Assembly (NCBI RefSeq): GCF_030409055.1 | Contig: NZ_CP116619.1 | Location: 4,295,628 to 4,359,627, forward strand | Length of the DNA stretch: 64,000 nt | DNA from: Trichocoleus desertorum NBK24 | Lineage (GTDB): Bacteria; Cyanobacteriota; Cyanobacteriia; FACHB-46 | Reading direction: 5' to 3' | Shown: positions 33,971-40,156 of the stretch, piece by piece | Layout of the letters: each line of letters opens with the position of its first letter | Position numbering within the stretch: position 1 is the stretch's first letter | The notes under the pieces: model-generated | What the model saw: only the letters and a program-made list of their open reading frames with translations | Told to the model about the DNA's origin: nothing | The model's database searches: none | Made by a program: the position numbers and the translations under genes

Positions 33971-34903
33971 TCACAGAGGCATCATTAAGGTTTCATCGCT
34001 CCAGTGGCTTTCTTCCAAAAATTCTTGGAAAGTTGTTAGCAGGCCAGGGAATTCTTTTCGCAGGTTGGGGACATCTGCTTGGTAGCCTTGATTGCGATAC
34101 CACTGGATCAGGTCAAAAAGCGACTTGCGAAACAGGAGCAAAAAGATCCACGGTGGCACTTCTCTGTAAATGACTGGTTTTCCTTGCACCTGAGTAAATA
34201 CTTCTGCCATTTGTCGGGGTGTCAATACATCTCCAGCCAACTCGATCGATTGCTCCAGGTATCGTTCGGGATGCTTCATCACCTGAGCCGCCACGCGCCC
34301 CATGTCTTTAGTGGTAATCAGATGCAAGGGCCTATTCGGTTGAACTGAGAAGGAAAATGAGCCTTTGAGAACGGAGGGTCTAGTATATCGTTTCCAAAAT
34401 TCCTCCATAAACAAGCAAGCTCGCAGCATAGTAGTTGGTAGGCCAGCTTGTCTGAGGATTTGCTCTACCTGATACTTCTGCTCAATATGGCCAATTCCTG
34501 TCTGGCGATCGGCTCCTCCCGCAGAGTTATAGATGAAATGGCAAATATCTGTAGTTTTAGCAACCTGGGCTAAGGTTCTTGCCCTTGACACCTCACGAGG
34601 GTCAGGTTTGGCGGAGTCTCCAGCGATCGCATGACAGTAAACTTGGCTCACCCCTGCAAATACCTGGGCGAGAGACGTAGCATCATCGAGATCCCCTTCC
34701 ACGAATTCCAGTTTGGTGTGGTTGAGTTTGGCTAAGGAGGGACGGTTCAAGTCAATTTTACGAGTCAGGATTCGCAGGTCTGTAATCTTTTGCTCAAGTA
34801 GCCCCTGCACAACCCGGTGCCCTGTTCCACCAGTGACCCCAATCAATAGAACCTTACCAACCCGGCTCTCTACCTCACTTGCCGAACTGCCAGAGTTGTT
34901 CAC
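33971..34903 (-). CDS. NAD(P)-binding atypical SDR, NmrA/SDR_a5-like
   Basis: 310 aa, GTG start. Rossmann motif near the N terminus VLLIGVTGGTGHRVV, then LEFVEGDLDD, YNSAGGADRQ and VEQILRQAGLPTTMLRACLF, typical of NmrA-type atypical short-chain dehydrogenases, which often bind NADP without strong catalytic activity. The classic YxxxK pair is absent. Substrate unknown. A phosphoesterase gene remnant and an IS element lie directly upstream. Confidence 0.82.
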   Translation of the reverse strand: MNNSGSSASEVESRVGKVLLIGVTGGTGHRVVQGLLEQKITDLRILTRKIDLNRPSLAKLNHTKLEFVEGDLDDATSLAQVFAGVSQVYCHAIAGDSAKPDPREVSRARTLAQVAKTTDICHFIYNSAGGADRQTGIGHIEQKYQVEQILRQAGLPTTMLRACLFMEEFWKRYTRPSVLKGSFSFSVQPNRPLHLITTKDMGRVAAQVMKHPERYLEQSIELAGDVLTPRQMAEVFTQVQGKPVIYREVPPWIFLLLFRKSLFDLIQWYRNQGYQADVPNLRKEFPGLLTTFQEFLEESHWSDETLMMPL

Positions 34904-34970: not shown

Positions 34971-35085
34971 GTTGAAACTCGTCAAATTTGATGACCAGTG
35001 ACCATACGAACACTAACTGCACCCCTGCGGACTCTAACAGCGGCATCACGTCTCGGATCAAGTGGTTGTTCTCTGGCAGGGGTAG
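34971..35085 (-). pseudogene. Decayed 3-prime fragment of a metallophosphoesterase gene
   Basis: About 84 bases (34990-35078) are near-identical to 38657-38740 inside the full phosphoesterase gene, with about six substitutions and two one-base insertions. They encode ENNHLIRDVMPLLESAG, corresponding to ENDYLIRDVMPLLESAG in the intact protein. The next 20-odd bases (34971-34993) match the very end of that gene (encoding VIKFDEFQ). About 310 bases between are missing. The fragment thus looks like the scar of a second, largely deleted copy, and lies about 50 bases from the left end of the IS element. Confidence 0.8.
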
Positions 35086-35137
35086 GCTGTCAGGGAATCA
35101 AAAGCAGTGCAATCGAATTGGCAAAAGAGTTTCTAAG

Positions 35138-36049
35138 AGGGTGTTTGAAAAGTCGGGTAAACAGTAGAAAAGCTCACTCAGTGTAAGCTGCGAATACGAA
35201 AGAACACAGCACCGAGTGAGCTAGATGGGTAAATCCTATCCCAGTAATCTGACCCGTGCCGAATACGAATTTCTCAGTGACCTGATTCCAGAAGCAAAAC
35301 CCGGTGGTCGCCCACGCAGCATCGAGATGTGGGCAGTTCTCAATGCCATCTTCTACGTCCTAGTCGAGGGGTGTCGTTGGCGAGCGTTGCCGGGAGACTT
35401 TCCGGCATGGCAGACGGTGTATACCTATTTTCGCAACTGGCGCAAGGACGGCACTTGGATTGTGATTCATGACCGCTTACGTGAGTGGACGCGCATCGAA
35501 GTGGATCGCCAGCCCAGTCCCTCTGAAGCGATCCTCGACTCGCAAAGTGTCAAAACGGCGGCAGGGGTGAGCGAACAGGTGGGATTTGACAGTGGCAAAG
35601 TGATCAAGGGGCGCAAGCGGTTTATCAGTGTCGATACCTTGGGACTGGTGCTGCGTGTGTTCGTGACTGCTGCCAGTGTGGGAGAACGAGCAGGGGGCAA
35701 ACGGGTACTCAAGCGGGTCAAACGGATGGACAAAGCTGTGTTTCGTCTAACCACCATTTGGGTCGATGGTGGCTTTGATGGCGCACCGTTCCTAATGTGG
35801 GTGATGGACGTTTGCCGTTGGATTATCCAAGTGGTGCTGCGACCTGAACAAACCAAGGGGTTCGTGCTGCTCAAAAAGCGATGGGTGGTGGAGCGGACAT
35901 TCGGTTGGTTGATGCACTGTCGTCGTCTAGTGCGTGACTATGAGTTATTGCCAGAGACCTCAGAGACATTAATCTATCTGGCAATGATTCGGATAATGGT
36001 CAAGCGATTGGCGTAAACTTTGACTCGTTACAACTTTTCAAACACCCTC
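35138..36049 (+). mobile_element. IS5-family insertion sequence (IS1031-like), intact
   Basis: 912 bp bounded by 17-bp perfect terminal inverted repeats GAGGGTGTTTGAAAAGT (35138-35154 and complement at 36033-36049). The flanking triplet TAA (35135-35137 and 36050-36052) is a 3-bp target duplication of TNA type, as in the IS1031 group of IS5. One transposase gene fills the element. Perfect ends and an open reading frame suggest recent, possibly still active, transposition. Confidence 0.92.
35225..36016 (+). CDS. IS5-family transposase
   Basis: 263 aa in a single frame. An N-terminal DUF4096-type region (EMWAVLNAIFYVLVEGCRWR, LPGDFPAWQTVYTYF) precedes a DDE catalytic domain: first Asp in AILDSQSVKTA, second in IWVDGGFDG, and Glu in WVVERTFGWL. 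The last helix has YELLPETSETLIYLAMIRI. Full length, with no frameshift or internal stop. ATG at 35225 lies 87 bases inside the left inverted repeat. Confidence 0.95.
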   Translation: MGKSYPSNLTRAEYEFLSDLIPEAKPGGRPRSIEMWAVLNAIFYVLVEGCRWRALPGDFPAWQTVYTYFRNWRKDGTWIVIHDRLREWTRIEVDRQPSPSEAILDSQSVKTAAGVSEQVGFDSGKVIKGRKRFISVDTLGLVLRVFVTAASVGERAGGKRVLKRVKRMDKAVFRLTTIWVDGGFDGAPFLMWVMDVCRWIIQVVLRPEQTKGFVLLKKRWVVERTFGWLMHCRRLVRDYELLPETSETLIYLAMIRIMVKRLA

Positions 36050-36052
36050 TAA

Positions 36053-36534
36053 GACTGTAAATAGTTGATTTTGATTACTCTGTCAATTGATAAAAACTCT
36101 ACAACTGCATAATTTAGTGATAGAAAATATCAGAACTAATGAAGCCACTGATATTGATTCAGTGCCATCACGGACTGGTTTCCCAGAATTGAACTAGCTA
36201 ATACCGAATAATTATCAGGTTGGTTTTCAAGTGAATGGAGTATTACTAGAGAGAAGCTTAAAAACGCTCTGAAGTGATTGCTTAAGATGTTGGTGCATCA
36301 TAAATCGAGTTAAGTCGAGTGAAACCCAAGAACAAACTAAAAGATAAACTTAACCAATCTTAATGATTTGATTTGGTTACAGTGAGACACCTGAAATACA
36401 GAGTTTGTGTGAATTCTGAAAGGCTCAAATTTTAGTTATAAATTTTTGCTTCAGGGAACGACTAAACTTTTTTCAAACTTTACTTGAGATGCCCAAACGT
36501 ATCTCTTGGTGTGGCGATTTTTTGAGGTAGGTTT
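36053..36534. other. A/T-rich intergenic region right of the IS element
   Basis: About 480 bases with no gene recognised and lower G+C than neighbours. Contains a hairpin CACTGA (36146-36151) / TCAGTG (36159-36164) and a direct repeat TCGAGTTAAGTCGAGT. The promoter of the kinase gene at 36535 should lie here. Confidence 0.35.
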
Positions 36535-38307
36535 ATGCCGGAGTTTTTGAAAATGTTTTTAGATTCAAGTCAGTTTATTCCGCATGGACATTGCTATCTT
36601 TGGCAACCTGGACTAGTTTGGCTGCATATAGCCTCTAACTCAATTATTGCCCTAGCTTATTATTCCATCCCGTTGATGTTGGTATACTTTGTCCACAGGC
36701 GGCGGGACATTCCTTTTAATGGGATTTTTATTTTATTTGGTATCTTTATTGTTGCTTGTGGTACCACCCACTTGATGGACATTTGGACGCTTTGGCATCC
36801 CCATTATTGGATATCGGGTTCGCTCAAAGCCATCACTGCGGCAGTTTCTTTGTACACTGCCTTAGAGTTAAGGTCTCTGATTCCTCAAGCTTTGTCGTTA
36901 CCCAGTTCGGCGCAACTTGAAGCCGCTAATCAAAAGCTGGAAGATGAGATTGTAGAACGCCAACGGATGGAAATCGCTTTGCGTGATTCCCAACAAATGT
37001 TGAAGTTGGTGATCGACACAATTCCACAAGCGATCTTCTGGAAGAACCATGAGTCAGTTTACTTGGGTTGCAATCGTAGCTTTGCCCTAGATGCAGGCTT
37101 AGCAGCATCAGAAGCAATCGTGGGCCGCACAGATTATGAGTTAGCTTGGAAACCAGAAGAAGCCGAGTTTTTTCAAAGTTGCGATCGCCAGTTTATAGAG
37201 AAAAATCATCCAGAATATCACATCCTTGAGCCGCAACTGCAAGCGGACGGTAGGCAATCTTGGTTAGATACAAGTAAGATTCCGTTGCATAATGCCGAAG
37301 GTCAAGTTGTAGGAATTCTAGGAATTTATGAAGATATTACAGAGCGTCAAATAGCAGATGCAGCTTTACGAGAATCGGAAGAATGTCTGCGTCAACGCAC
37401 CCAACAACTAGAGCAAACTCTCAAGGAACTACAAAAAACTCAATCGCAACTCATTCATACTGAAAAAATGTCTAGCTTGGGGCAATTGGTCGCTGGTATT
37501 GCTCATGAAATTAATAATCCAATTAACTTTATCTATGGCAATCTGAGCCATACCAACGAATACACTCAAGACTTGCTAAATTTGCTTGAGATTTATCAGC
37601 AAAGCTATCCCCATCCTGCTGAAACAGTTCAAGCCAAAGCTGAAGCAATTGACCTTGACTTTTTAACTGAGGACTTACCTAAAATGCTGTCTTCCATGAA
37701 GGTGGGAGCAGAGCGCATCCGGCAAATTGTCTTGTCCCTCCGCAACTTCTCTCGCCTAGAAGAATCAGAGATGAAGCCTGTGGATATTCATGAAGGTTTA
37801 GACAACACCTTACTGCTGCTACAACACCGTTTTAAGGAAAAAGTGGGGCGGTTTGGCGTTCAAGTGATCAAGGAATATGGCCCATTGCCAATGGTTGAGT
37901 GCTATGCAGGGCAGCTCAACCAAGTCTTTATGAATCTTATAGCTAATGCGATCGATGCTGTAGATGAGTTGCATCAAGTCACTACAGATCAATCAGCTCA
38001 GTCAACCTTTATTCGCATCGAGACCTCAGTCCTTGGCTCCAATCGAGTTGTGATCCGAATTGCCGACAACGGCATAGGTATGACAGAAACTGTCAGACAA
38101 CAGTTGTTTGATCCGTTCTTTACCACCAAGCCGTTAGGAAAGGGGACTGGGCTGGGATTATCCATCAGTTATCAGATTGTGACGGATAAGCATGGCGGCG
38201 AACTAACTTGTCACTCAGTCCCTGGACAAGGCACAGAGTTTCGGATTGAAATTCCAATCAAAGCCCAAAAATCAGCTTCACCGATTAACTCTGCGTTGCT
38301 GGTTTAG
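36535..38307 (+). CDS. Histidine kinase with ethylene-receptor-like membrane domain
   Basis: 590 aa. The N terminus (about 25-115) has three membrane helices matching the ETR1/SynEtr1 ethylene-binding domain: ALAYYSIPLMLVYFV and FIVACGTTHLMDIWTLW. Copper-ligand equivalents Cys75 and His79 (ETR1 Cys65, His69) are present, as are Tyr42, Ile45, Pro46 and Ile72. The ETR1 Asp25 position is Asn35. A PAS domain follows (about 150-275, FWKNHESVYLGCNRSFA), a coil, HisKA with His324 in GIAHEINNPINF, and an HATPase with ADNGIGM and GKGTGLGLSIS. No GAF domain is seen between the membrane domain and PAS. Its 3-prime end overlaps the convergent phosphoesterase by 23 bases. Confidence 0.9.
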   Translation: MPEFLKMFLDSSQFIPHGHCYLWQPGLVWLHIASNSIIALAYYSIPLMLVYFVHRRRDIPFNGIFILFGIFIVACGTTHLMDIWTLWHPHYWISGSLKAITAAVSLYTALELRSLIPQALSLPSSAQLEAANQKLEDEIVERQRMEIALRDSQQMLKLVIDTIPQAIFWKNHESVYLGCNRSFALDAGLAASEAIVGRTDYELAWKPEEAEFFQSCDRQFIEKNHPEYHILEPQLQADGRQSWLDTSKIPLHNAEGQVVGILGIYEDITERQIADAALRESEECLRQRTQQLEQTLKELQKTQSQLIHTEKMSSLGQLVAGIAHEINNPINFIYGNLSHTNEYTQDLLNLLEIYQQSYPHPAETVQAKAEAIDLDFLTEDLPKMLSSMKVGAERIRQIVLSLRNFSRLEESEMKPVDIHEGLDNTLLLLQHRFKEKVGRFGVQVIKEYGPLPMVECYAGQLNQVFMNLIANAIDAVDELHQVTTDQSAQSTFIRIETSVLGSNRVVIRIADNGIGMTETVRQQLFDPFFTTKPLGKGTGLGLSISYQIVTDKHGGELTCHSVPGQGTEFRIEIPIKAQKSASPINSALLV

Positions 38308-40156
38308 TTGGTGGAGTTTGCAAGAGCTGGAACTCATCAAACTTGATTACAGACGACTGAGGCTGACGGGTGTCAAAGTAATAGCTACTAACCGTGCCAT
38401 CGGCTGTATTGAAGGTGCTGAACGCGGTGATGTCGTTGCTGGACAGATAAGGCAGCGATCGCCCATTCTCATCTTTGAGGGGTGCGATCGTCGGGACCAC
38501 AGGCGCTAAACCGTTAGGATTGCCGAGTGCGGTGTAACTCGCTGAGTCAGAACTGGGAACTCCGGGCCTTGGCTGATCTACATAAGCCCCGTAGGAGTTG
38601 CCGACATTAGAAGTTTCGAGAAAATTCATGCCGCTGGGACTTACAAAGCGGTTCCACACATGACAGTGACCGTAGAACACTAACTGCACCCCTGCGGACT
38701 CTAGAAGTGGCATCACGTCTCGGATCAAGTAGTCGTTCTCTGGCGGGTACTCATACCGAACTACTTGGATGGTGCCGTTCGGTGCGCGATCGCTCACGGT
38801 TACAGGGTCGGTGTAAGGCGGGACGACATTGCCTCCTAAAGAATGGGGGGGATGGTGCAACATCACCACTTTGTACTTGGCTTGCTGAAACTCCGGGCTG
38901 TTTAATTCCTGCTGCAACCATTGGTACTGCTTGCTGCCCTGAGCGATCGGCTCAAAAATGTGTTGCCCATAGCCCCAAGCATCTTGGTCGAGTTGAGATA
39001 ACTCCTTGGCCTGCTGACTTTCCTGCGGTACTGGGTCACTGTATTTGCCGCGAATCTCAGAGCCGATTTCTGGGACGCGCCAAATGTTGGTTGCGTATAG
39101 AACCACTAAGCGAATGTCGCCAAAAGTAGCGGCGTAGTAGGTTTTGCCGCCCGTTTCACTAGTAGGCAGGGTAAAGATTTCTTCGTAGGTATCTGTGTTG
39201 AAGGACTGATCTTTAATCCAAGTAGTGCGATTTGTGGCATCATCTGCGGACTGGCTCGGTGCCTGTGCATAACGAGCTGAGGCGATCGCCCGAGGGACAG
39301 CATTATCAAATTGGCTATTTAAGGAGTTCTCCATTGAGAAGCGTCCCATTACCTCATGATTGCCAATCGTGGTAAACAGAGGCGCATGTTGAATAATCTC
39401 GCCTCCCCGGTAAATGGTTTTCTGGCCTTGTTTCTCCAGCTTGTAGGCCGCTCGACCTTGCAGAGCTGGGAAGAAGGCTCCGCCGCGATTGTCATCAAAC
39501 CACTCGGAGGCGCGATCGGGAATGTTAACTAGGTCTCCCGCCAAAAACACCGCATCTACTGTGCCGACCGTCTCAACTACCTTTTGTAAGTTTGCTGATA
39601 CCAAAGGCTTGAGCTGGTGGTCGGAGGTGAGCAAAATTTTGAGAGCTGTTTGAGGGGTAGGCTGAGGTACCAAGCTAAACACTCGGCTCGTAACCACTTG
39701 CCCATCTTCCTGCACACTGGTAACTCGATACGGCACCCGCACTCCTGGCGTTAGACCGCTAACTTCTGCTTCATGCCGCCAAATCTGTCGTCGTTGGGGT
39801 TTGGCATCAATTAGGTTTGCAGCAATCGGAGAGCTAACCTGCGATTTTTGATCTTCACGGGTGCGACTGAGTTGGGTGCTAGTGGCGGTGACGGTGCGAT
39901 CGCGATCTTTTTCGGTAGGTGCTGTTAGGCCAGGGCCATAGGTGACAAAGTGCCGAGAACCCGGAAACTCGGTGAACCAGACCACTCGTACGGAAGTAGA
40001 GGTAGGCAGTTGCAGAAACGGATCAGTCAGTAACCGAGGAGTGGCAGCCATAAATATAGAGGTGGAATTGAAGGCAGGTAGAAGCGTAGCTAGGATAGCG
40101 ATCGCCAAACCCAGGACTATGAGGGGTATCAACCCTCGATTCCAGCGTTGAAGCAT
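38285..40156 (-). CDS. Secreted metallophosphoesterase with N-terminal Fn3-like domain
   Basis: 623 aa from ATG 40156; a TTG at 40171 is less likely. The N terminus is a signal peptide (LIPLIVLGLAIAILATLL), then a fibronectin-III-like domain as in purple acid phosphatases (VRVVWFTEFPGSRHFVTYG). The calcineurin-like metal-binding set is complete: LTSDHQ, LAGDLVNI, TIGNHEVMG, MLHHPPHS and FYGHCHVWN. Probably a periplasmic or secreted phosphatase; substrate unknown. A decayed second copy of its 3-prime end lies at 34971-35085. Confidence 0.87.
   Translation of the reverse strand: MLQRWNRGLIPLIVLGLAIAILATLLPAFNSTSIFMAATPRLLTDPFLQLPTSTSVRVVWFTEFPGSRHFVTYGPGLTAPTEKDRDRTVTATSTQLSRTREDQKSQVSSPIAANLIDAKPQRRQIWRHEAEVSGLTPGVRVPYRVTSVQEDGQVVTSRVFSLVPQPTPQTALKILLTSDHQLKPLVSANLQKVVETVGTVDAVFLAGDLVNIPDRASEWFDDNRGGAFFPALQGRAAYKLEKQGQKTIYRGGEIIQHAPLFTTIGNHEVMGRFSMENSLNSQFDNAVPRAIASARYAQAPSQSADDATNRTTWIKDQSFNTDTYEEIFTLPTSETGGKTYYAATFGDIRLVVLYATNIWRVPEIGSEIRGKYSDPVPQESQQAKELSQLDQDAWGYGQHIFEPIAQGSKQYQWLQQELNSPEFQQAKYKVVMLHHPPHSLGGNVVPPYTDPVTVSDRAPNGTIQVVRYEYPPENDYLIRDVMPLLESAGVQLVFYGHCHVWNRFVSPSGMNFLETSNVGNSYGAYVDQPRPGVPSSDSASYTALGNPNGLAPVVPTIAPLKDENGRSLPYLSSNDITAFSTFNTADGTVSSYYFDTRQPQSSVIKFDEFQLLQTPPTKPATQS

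Follow-up and report, generated by a model that had tools for sequence, protein, structure and literature searches.

The window, a stretch of 64,000 nucleotides, carries on its plus strand an open reading frame of 590 codons (36535-38307), whose product is arranged as ethylene-binding domain, PAS, HisKA and HATPase_c, according to the Pfam scan and to comparison with orthologues. The ethylene-binding domain (residues 27-122; 36613-36900, plus strand) matches the Pfam profile ETR1_N (PF25487) with an E-value of 2.3e-42 and a score of 143.6 bits, where the cut-off is 27. The match covers positions 2-97 of the 97 of the model, and the same profile has no matches in any of 14 control genomes. In the AlphaFold2 model of the binding domain, long helices are predicted at residues 25-55, 62-87 and 91-121 with a mean pLDDT of 89.6, and the domain is thus predicted to contain the three transmembrane helices of ETR1_N domains. 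The downstream domains, all on the plus strand, are a PAS domain of the PAS_4 type (residues 161-272; 37015-37350; E 7.4e-16), the HisKA phosphoacceptor helix (residues 315-342; 37477-37560; E 1e-6), and the HATPase_c ATP-binding domain (residues 460-576; 37912-38262; E 3.4e-25). The H box is seen in the sequence as AHEINNP, with His324 at 37504-37506 (plus strand), and the N and G boxes as DNGIGM and GKGTGLGL. With these motifs, and with HisKA and HATPase_c above the cut-off, the protein is predicted to be a sensor histidine kinase.

The original prediction had described a PAS domain and no visible GAF domain, and the Pfam scan agrees with it on both counts, as no GAF domain was found in the 590-residue protein at E <= 1e-3. 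Hence the protein does not have the order of plant-type ETR/ERS receptors, in which GAF follows the binding domain. This is ordinary, since AzoEtr1, which has the same order of binding domain, PAS and kinase, is reported to bind ethylene with high affinity (PMC11819568). In its kinase half, the protein shares 66% identity with another kinase encoded in the genome, and as a whole it has 114 matches there, which suggests that a binding domain has been joined here to a kinase type common in this genome. Among solved structures there was no match by sequence at E <= 1 and none by fold at E <= 0.001.

The nearest neighbours of the receptor gene in the window encode a transposase, an NmrA-like protein, a signal peptidase, a metallophosphoesterase and a DUF1350 protein. 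In two other species of the genus (G001 and G002), the receptor gene is flanked by a convergent metallophosphoesterase gene, named by its likeness to that of the window, and a divergent signal peptidase gene. In the window, this arrangement is interrupted by the NmrA-like gene (33971-34903) and by an IS5-family element (35132-36054). The element has inverted ends of 22 nt (35132-35153 and 36033-36054) and an open transposase reading frame (35225-36016). It lies 480 bases upstream of the receptor start codon, and these 480 bases align with G001; it is missing from the same place in both other species, the sequence of G001 being uninterrupted. Between the NmrA-like gene and the element lies a 28-base repeat (35009-35036) that matches part of the metallophosphoesterase gene (38676-38703) exactly; it may be what is left of a degraded copy of that gene. 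The 3' ends of the receptor and metallophosphoesterase genes overlap by 23 bases (38285-38307), just as they do in G001 and G002. No response regulator gene is adjacent to the receptor gene in the window, G001 or G002, that is, the operon pair of the AzoEtr1 kind is absent from all three. Scans for promoters and terminators yielded nothing above chance.

We aligned the binding domain with the other members of the family (357 distinct domains, see below), using the ETR1 residue numbers given in the original prediction. ETR1 positions 25, 32, 35, 36, 62, 65 and 69 correspond to 35, 42, 45, 46, 72, 75 and 79 of the window protein, and this constant offset of +10 rules out an alignment slip. Six of the seven residues important for ethylene binding in ETR1 are kept, as had been predicted: Tyr42 (36658-36660), Ile45-Pro46 (36667-36672), Ile72 (36748-36750), and, within Cys75 to His79 (36757-36771), the counterparts of Cys65 and His69, the Cu(I) ligands of ETR1 (PMC13012798). 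The seventh, Asp25, is replaced by Asn35, encoded by AAC (36637-36639; all on the plus strand). An Asp beside position 35, named at the outset as a finding that would overturn this reading, was looked for and is absent, as helix 1 (residues 25-55) contains neither Asp nor Glu. In the aligned rows, Asp is encoded by GAT or GAC and Asn by AAT or AAC, so that the two differ by one transition. The alignment was checked on two domains of the genome G418 that fall inside the published coordinates of GeiEtr1 and GeiEtr2 and are assigned to Geitlerinema PCC 7105 by this agreement of coordinates; both read D-Y-I-P-I-C-H, in line with the retention of all seven residues reported for these proteins (PMC6682694).

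The genome (5.46 Mb, a single contig) encodes three ETR1_N proteins. The other two (L257:3179-5131 and L258:3291-5393) resemble the window protein in having an ETR1_N domain, PAS domains and a kinase, and share 61% and 66% identity with it at their binding-domain ends; they differ in having Asp at position 35 and two PAS-matching stretches each, and one of them has a HisKA_2-type kinase. Full-length orthologues of the window protein, 94% and 88% identical to it, are present in the two other species, and position 35 is Asn in all three species of the genus examined, alongside two (G000), three (G001) and two (G002) Asp-type paralogues. Between the three species, dN/dS is 0.05-0.09 for the binding domain, against 0.10-0.11 for the gene as a whole. 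Given the Asn in all three orthologues and the low dN/dS, the Asn receptor is a conserved gene of the genus under strong purifying selection. A sequencing error is ruled out by the recurrence of Asn in orthologues from three species (88-94% identity), and decay of the gene by the dN/dS of about 0.1.

To place Asn35 in the family, we used a domain set assembled from whole-genome searches, a scan of genome contigs, and fetched stretches. It comprised 411 aligned hits, which after removal of five gappy rows and merging of identical cores yielded the 357 distinct domains, mainly cyanobacterial. Position 35 is Asp in 330 of them, Asn in 24 and Ser in one, and is unread in two. These counts reflect uneven sampling: the contig scan is biased to window-like domains, one source is represented by the matches listed, and the family searches targeted families with Asn members (ahead of these searches, the count of Asn was 17 out of 251). 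The sources of the 24 Asn domains are 21 genomes and the records L123 and L133; the only non-cyanobacterial one belongs to a Methyloversatilis MAG (L123). In the 15 Asn proteins scanned, the domain is combined with a kinase alone, or with a kinase and PAS, GAF, receiver, or receiver plus Hpt; the L133 protein is incomplete, being cut at the locus end.

As a group, the Asn domains are not degraded, since 19 of them show strict identity at all six other residues, compared to 267 of the 330 Asp domains; Cys75 is kept in all 24 and His79 in 23. The domain of L389, which has lost the Tyr, Pro and His, is probably non-functional. Among the Asp-type domains, 16 out of 330 (L318, L400 and others) have the Cu(I)-ligand Cys75 replaced, and these are perhaps non-binding relatives.

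On a tree of 354 domains, built with columns 35 and 98 excluded, the distribution of Asn and Asp takes 14 changes, either gains or losses, at least eight of which are forced by well-supported branches; the tree is based on a small number of columns (110) and has long branches and many unresolved forks. Still, Asn is clustered beyond chance, as shuffling gave a mean of 23.5 changes, with none of 500 shuffles as low as 14. The window protein and its two orthologues form a supported Asn group of their own. The suggestion that Asn35 might mark a single clade fails for the family as a whole (AU test with 17 Asn and 234 Asp rows, p-AU 7.9e-6; 14 changes on the larger tree), the residue being fixed in the three species of the genus. 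In another genus, g51, six species have one ethylene-binding domain each, with Asn in four (L237, L244, L271 and L274) and Asp in two (L269 and L270); at residue 98, the Asn species have S, G, R and H, and the Asp species K and Q.

Position 98, which we take to be that of Lys91 in ETR1 numbering, is a lysine in 12 of the 24 Asn domains, including that of the window protein (36826-36828, plus strand). By the alignment, we take it to be the lysine to which Asp25 of ETR1 has been proposed to bridge (PMC13012798). According to the same review, EPR distances agree less with the AlphaFold arrangement than with an older model; a literature search on the bridging-lysine position, run without His98 by name, returned nothing beyond what this source says. 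Histidine occupies position 98 in five of the 24 Asn domains, from families f18, f23, f25 and f35, and in none of the 330 Asp domains. In a phylogeny-aware test, the association of His98 with Asn35 had a likelihood ratio (LR) of 17.5, ranking first among 339 column-residue pairs with 4-30 bearers. None of 196 simulations reached this value (the highest was 9.5), and in a single simulation the bearers were exclusively Asn rows. These figures describe only three changes on the tree and a residue that was picked after inspection, at a position taken from the literature, and the significance is gone after Bonferroni correction over the 339 pairs. We rejected a loss of positive charge at position 98 as the general partner of Asn35: the plain count of residues other than Lys or Arg (7 of 24 Asn against 24 of 330 Asp domains) gives a Fisher p of 0.002, while the phylogeny-aware LR is 6.2 with four extra parameters, which is not significant. 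Independent pairs showed no significance at this position, being too few.

The closest precedent is ETR1 itself, where replacement of Asp by Asn has been reported to leave a working receptor with an approximately 100-fold lower affinity (PMC13012798); the seventh residue is thus not an absolute need. We consider it fairly probable that the window protein is a Cu(I)-dependent ethylene-sensing receptor kinase of lower affinity, and a putative orphan. It would be a membrane receptor kinase, dimeric by analogy, in which Cys75 and His79 of helix 2 would hold Cu(I), with ethylene bound at that ion as in ETR1 and SynEtr1. In helix 1, Asn35 takes the place of the aspartate that confers high affinity in ETR1; the site would still accept copper and ethylene, with weaker binding (about 100-fold, again by analogy) and, as a corollary, faster release. 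As the copper site has been put at Asp25, Cys65 and His69 (PMC12643061), the Asn might also weaken the binding of copper. Binding of ethylene may shift the packing of the helices and, via the PAS domain, alter phosphorylation of His324, the receiver partner presumably being encoded at another place.

Beside the two Asp-type receptors of the same genome, such a protein could report higher ethylene levels. The idea that one receptor senses high levels and two others low ones suits this genus, but not the genomes with a lone Asn form. Such a division of labour is not general: in six of the 21 genomes (G007, G132, G108, G416, G248 and G420, the last being 82% complete), the Asn domain is the single match among the matches listed. 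The domain set does not include the second match of G119 or some weak matches in other genomes.

The original prediction had offered a variant ethylene sensor, a copper sensor, or another ligand. The first of these is favoured by the retained Cys75 and His79, the dN/dS of 0.10-0.11, and the function of the ETR1 variant (PMC13012798), whereas no positive evidence emerged for the other two. It is also unlikely that the protein is an ordinary high-affinity receptor, in which Asn35 would accept the hydrogen bond as Asp does and the affinity would be restored by changes nearby. The repeated switching between Asp and Asn on well-supported branches, with the other residues mostly kept, is what such a receptor would predict, and the confinement of His98 to Asn domains could be the compensation; but the same change is reported to be costly in ETR1 (PMC13012798), and the window protein retains Lys98, so that no compensating change is visible at the partner site. 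Less likely again is a loss of ethylene binding, in which case sensing would fall to the PAS domain, or the binding domain would sense Cu(I) or simply anchor the protein in the membrane. The retention of Tyr42, Ile45, Pro46 and Ile72, beyond the copper ligands, speaks against it even though a residue important for affinity is absent and the PAS domain may have a ligand of its own; furthermore, when three parts of the protein were compared, dN was lowest in the binding domain for each of the three species pairs, and the neighbouring ORFs scanned include no copper-transport family. A pocket retuned for another small pi-ligand, such as propylene, acetylene or carbon monoxide, seems very improbable, as the residue pattern indicates no other ligand, although on chemical grounds a Cu(I) site with a changed second shell could alter selectivity.

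Few proteins of bacterial ethylene perception have been studied so far, and repeated natural changes between Asp and Asn with the copper ligands kept provide ready tests of the ETR1 model, in terms of both affinity and the lysine bridge. As every species of the genus examined has both types, the genus is a neat case. A broader reading of the variant as a low-affinity, fast-releasing sensor is that the Asn class is recurrent and selected, that in some lineages a Lys-to-His swap yields an Asn35-His98 pair, with natural sequences thereby reporting the Asp-Lys switch of ETR1, and that an Asn receptor together with two or three Asp receptors gives the genus a wide ethylene range; we regard this as possible, while leaning against it. 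Since natural variants at the Asp position are mentioned in the review (PMC13012798), the Asn itself should come as no surprise to a specialist, and the window protein adds one more case to a variant that was known before.

Compared to known systems, the window protein resembles Arabidopsis ETR1 in its predicted three-helix Cu(I) domain with Cys and His ligands, and carries the same Asn as the engineered Asp25Asn form. ETR1, however, is a plant ER receptor with GAF and receiver domains and output to CTR1, whereas here the domain is attached to a bacterial PAS-kinase. AzoEtr1 of Azospirillum brasilense shares with the window protein the order of binding domain, PAS and histidine kinase, but has all seven residues, including the Asp, and an adjacent response regulator (PMC11819568), while the window gene encodes Asn and has no such neighbour. 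SynEtr1 of Synechocystis and GeiEtr1 and GeiEtr2 of Geitlerinema are, like the window protein, cyanobacterial proteins with an ethylene-binding domain. They differ from it in that SynEtr1 doubles as a light receptor (PMC6682694, PMC11819568), and GeiEtr1 and GeiEtr2 have the seven residues intact (PMC6682694).
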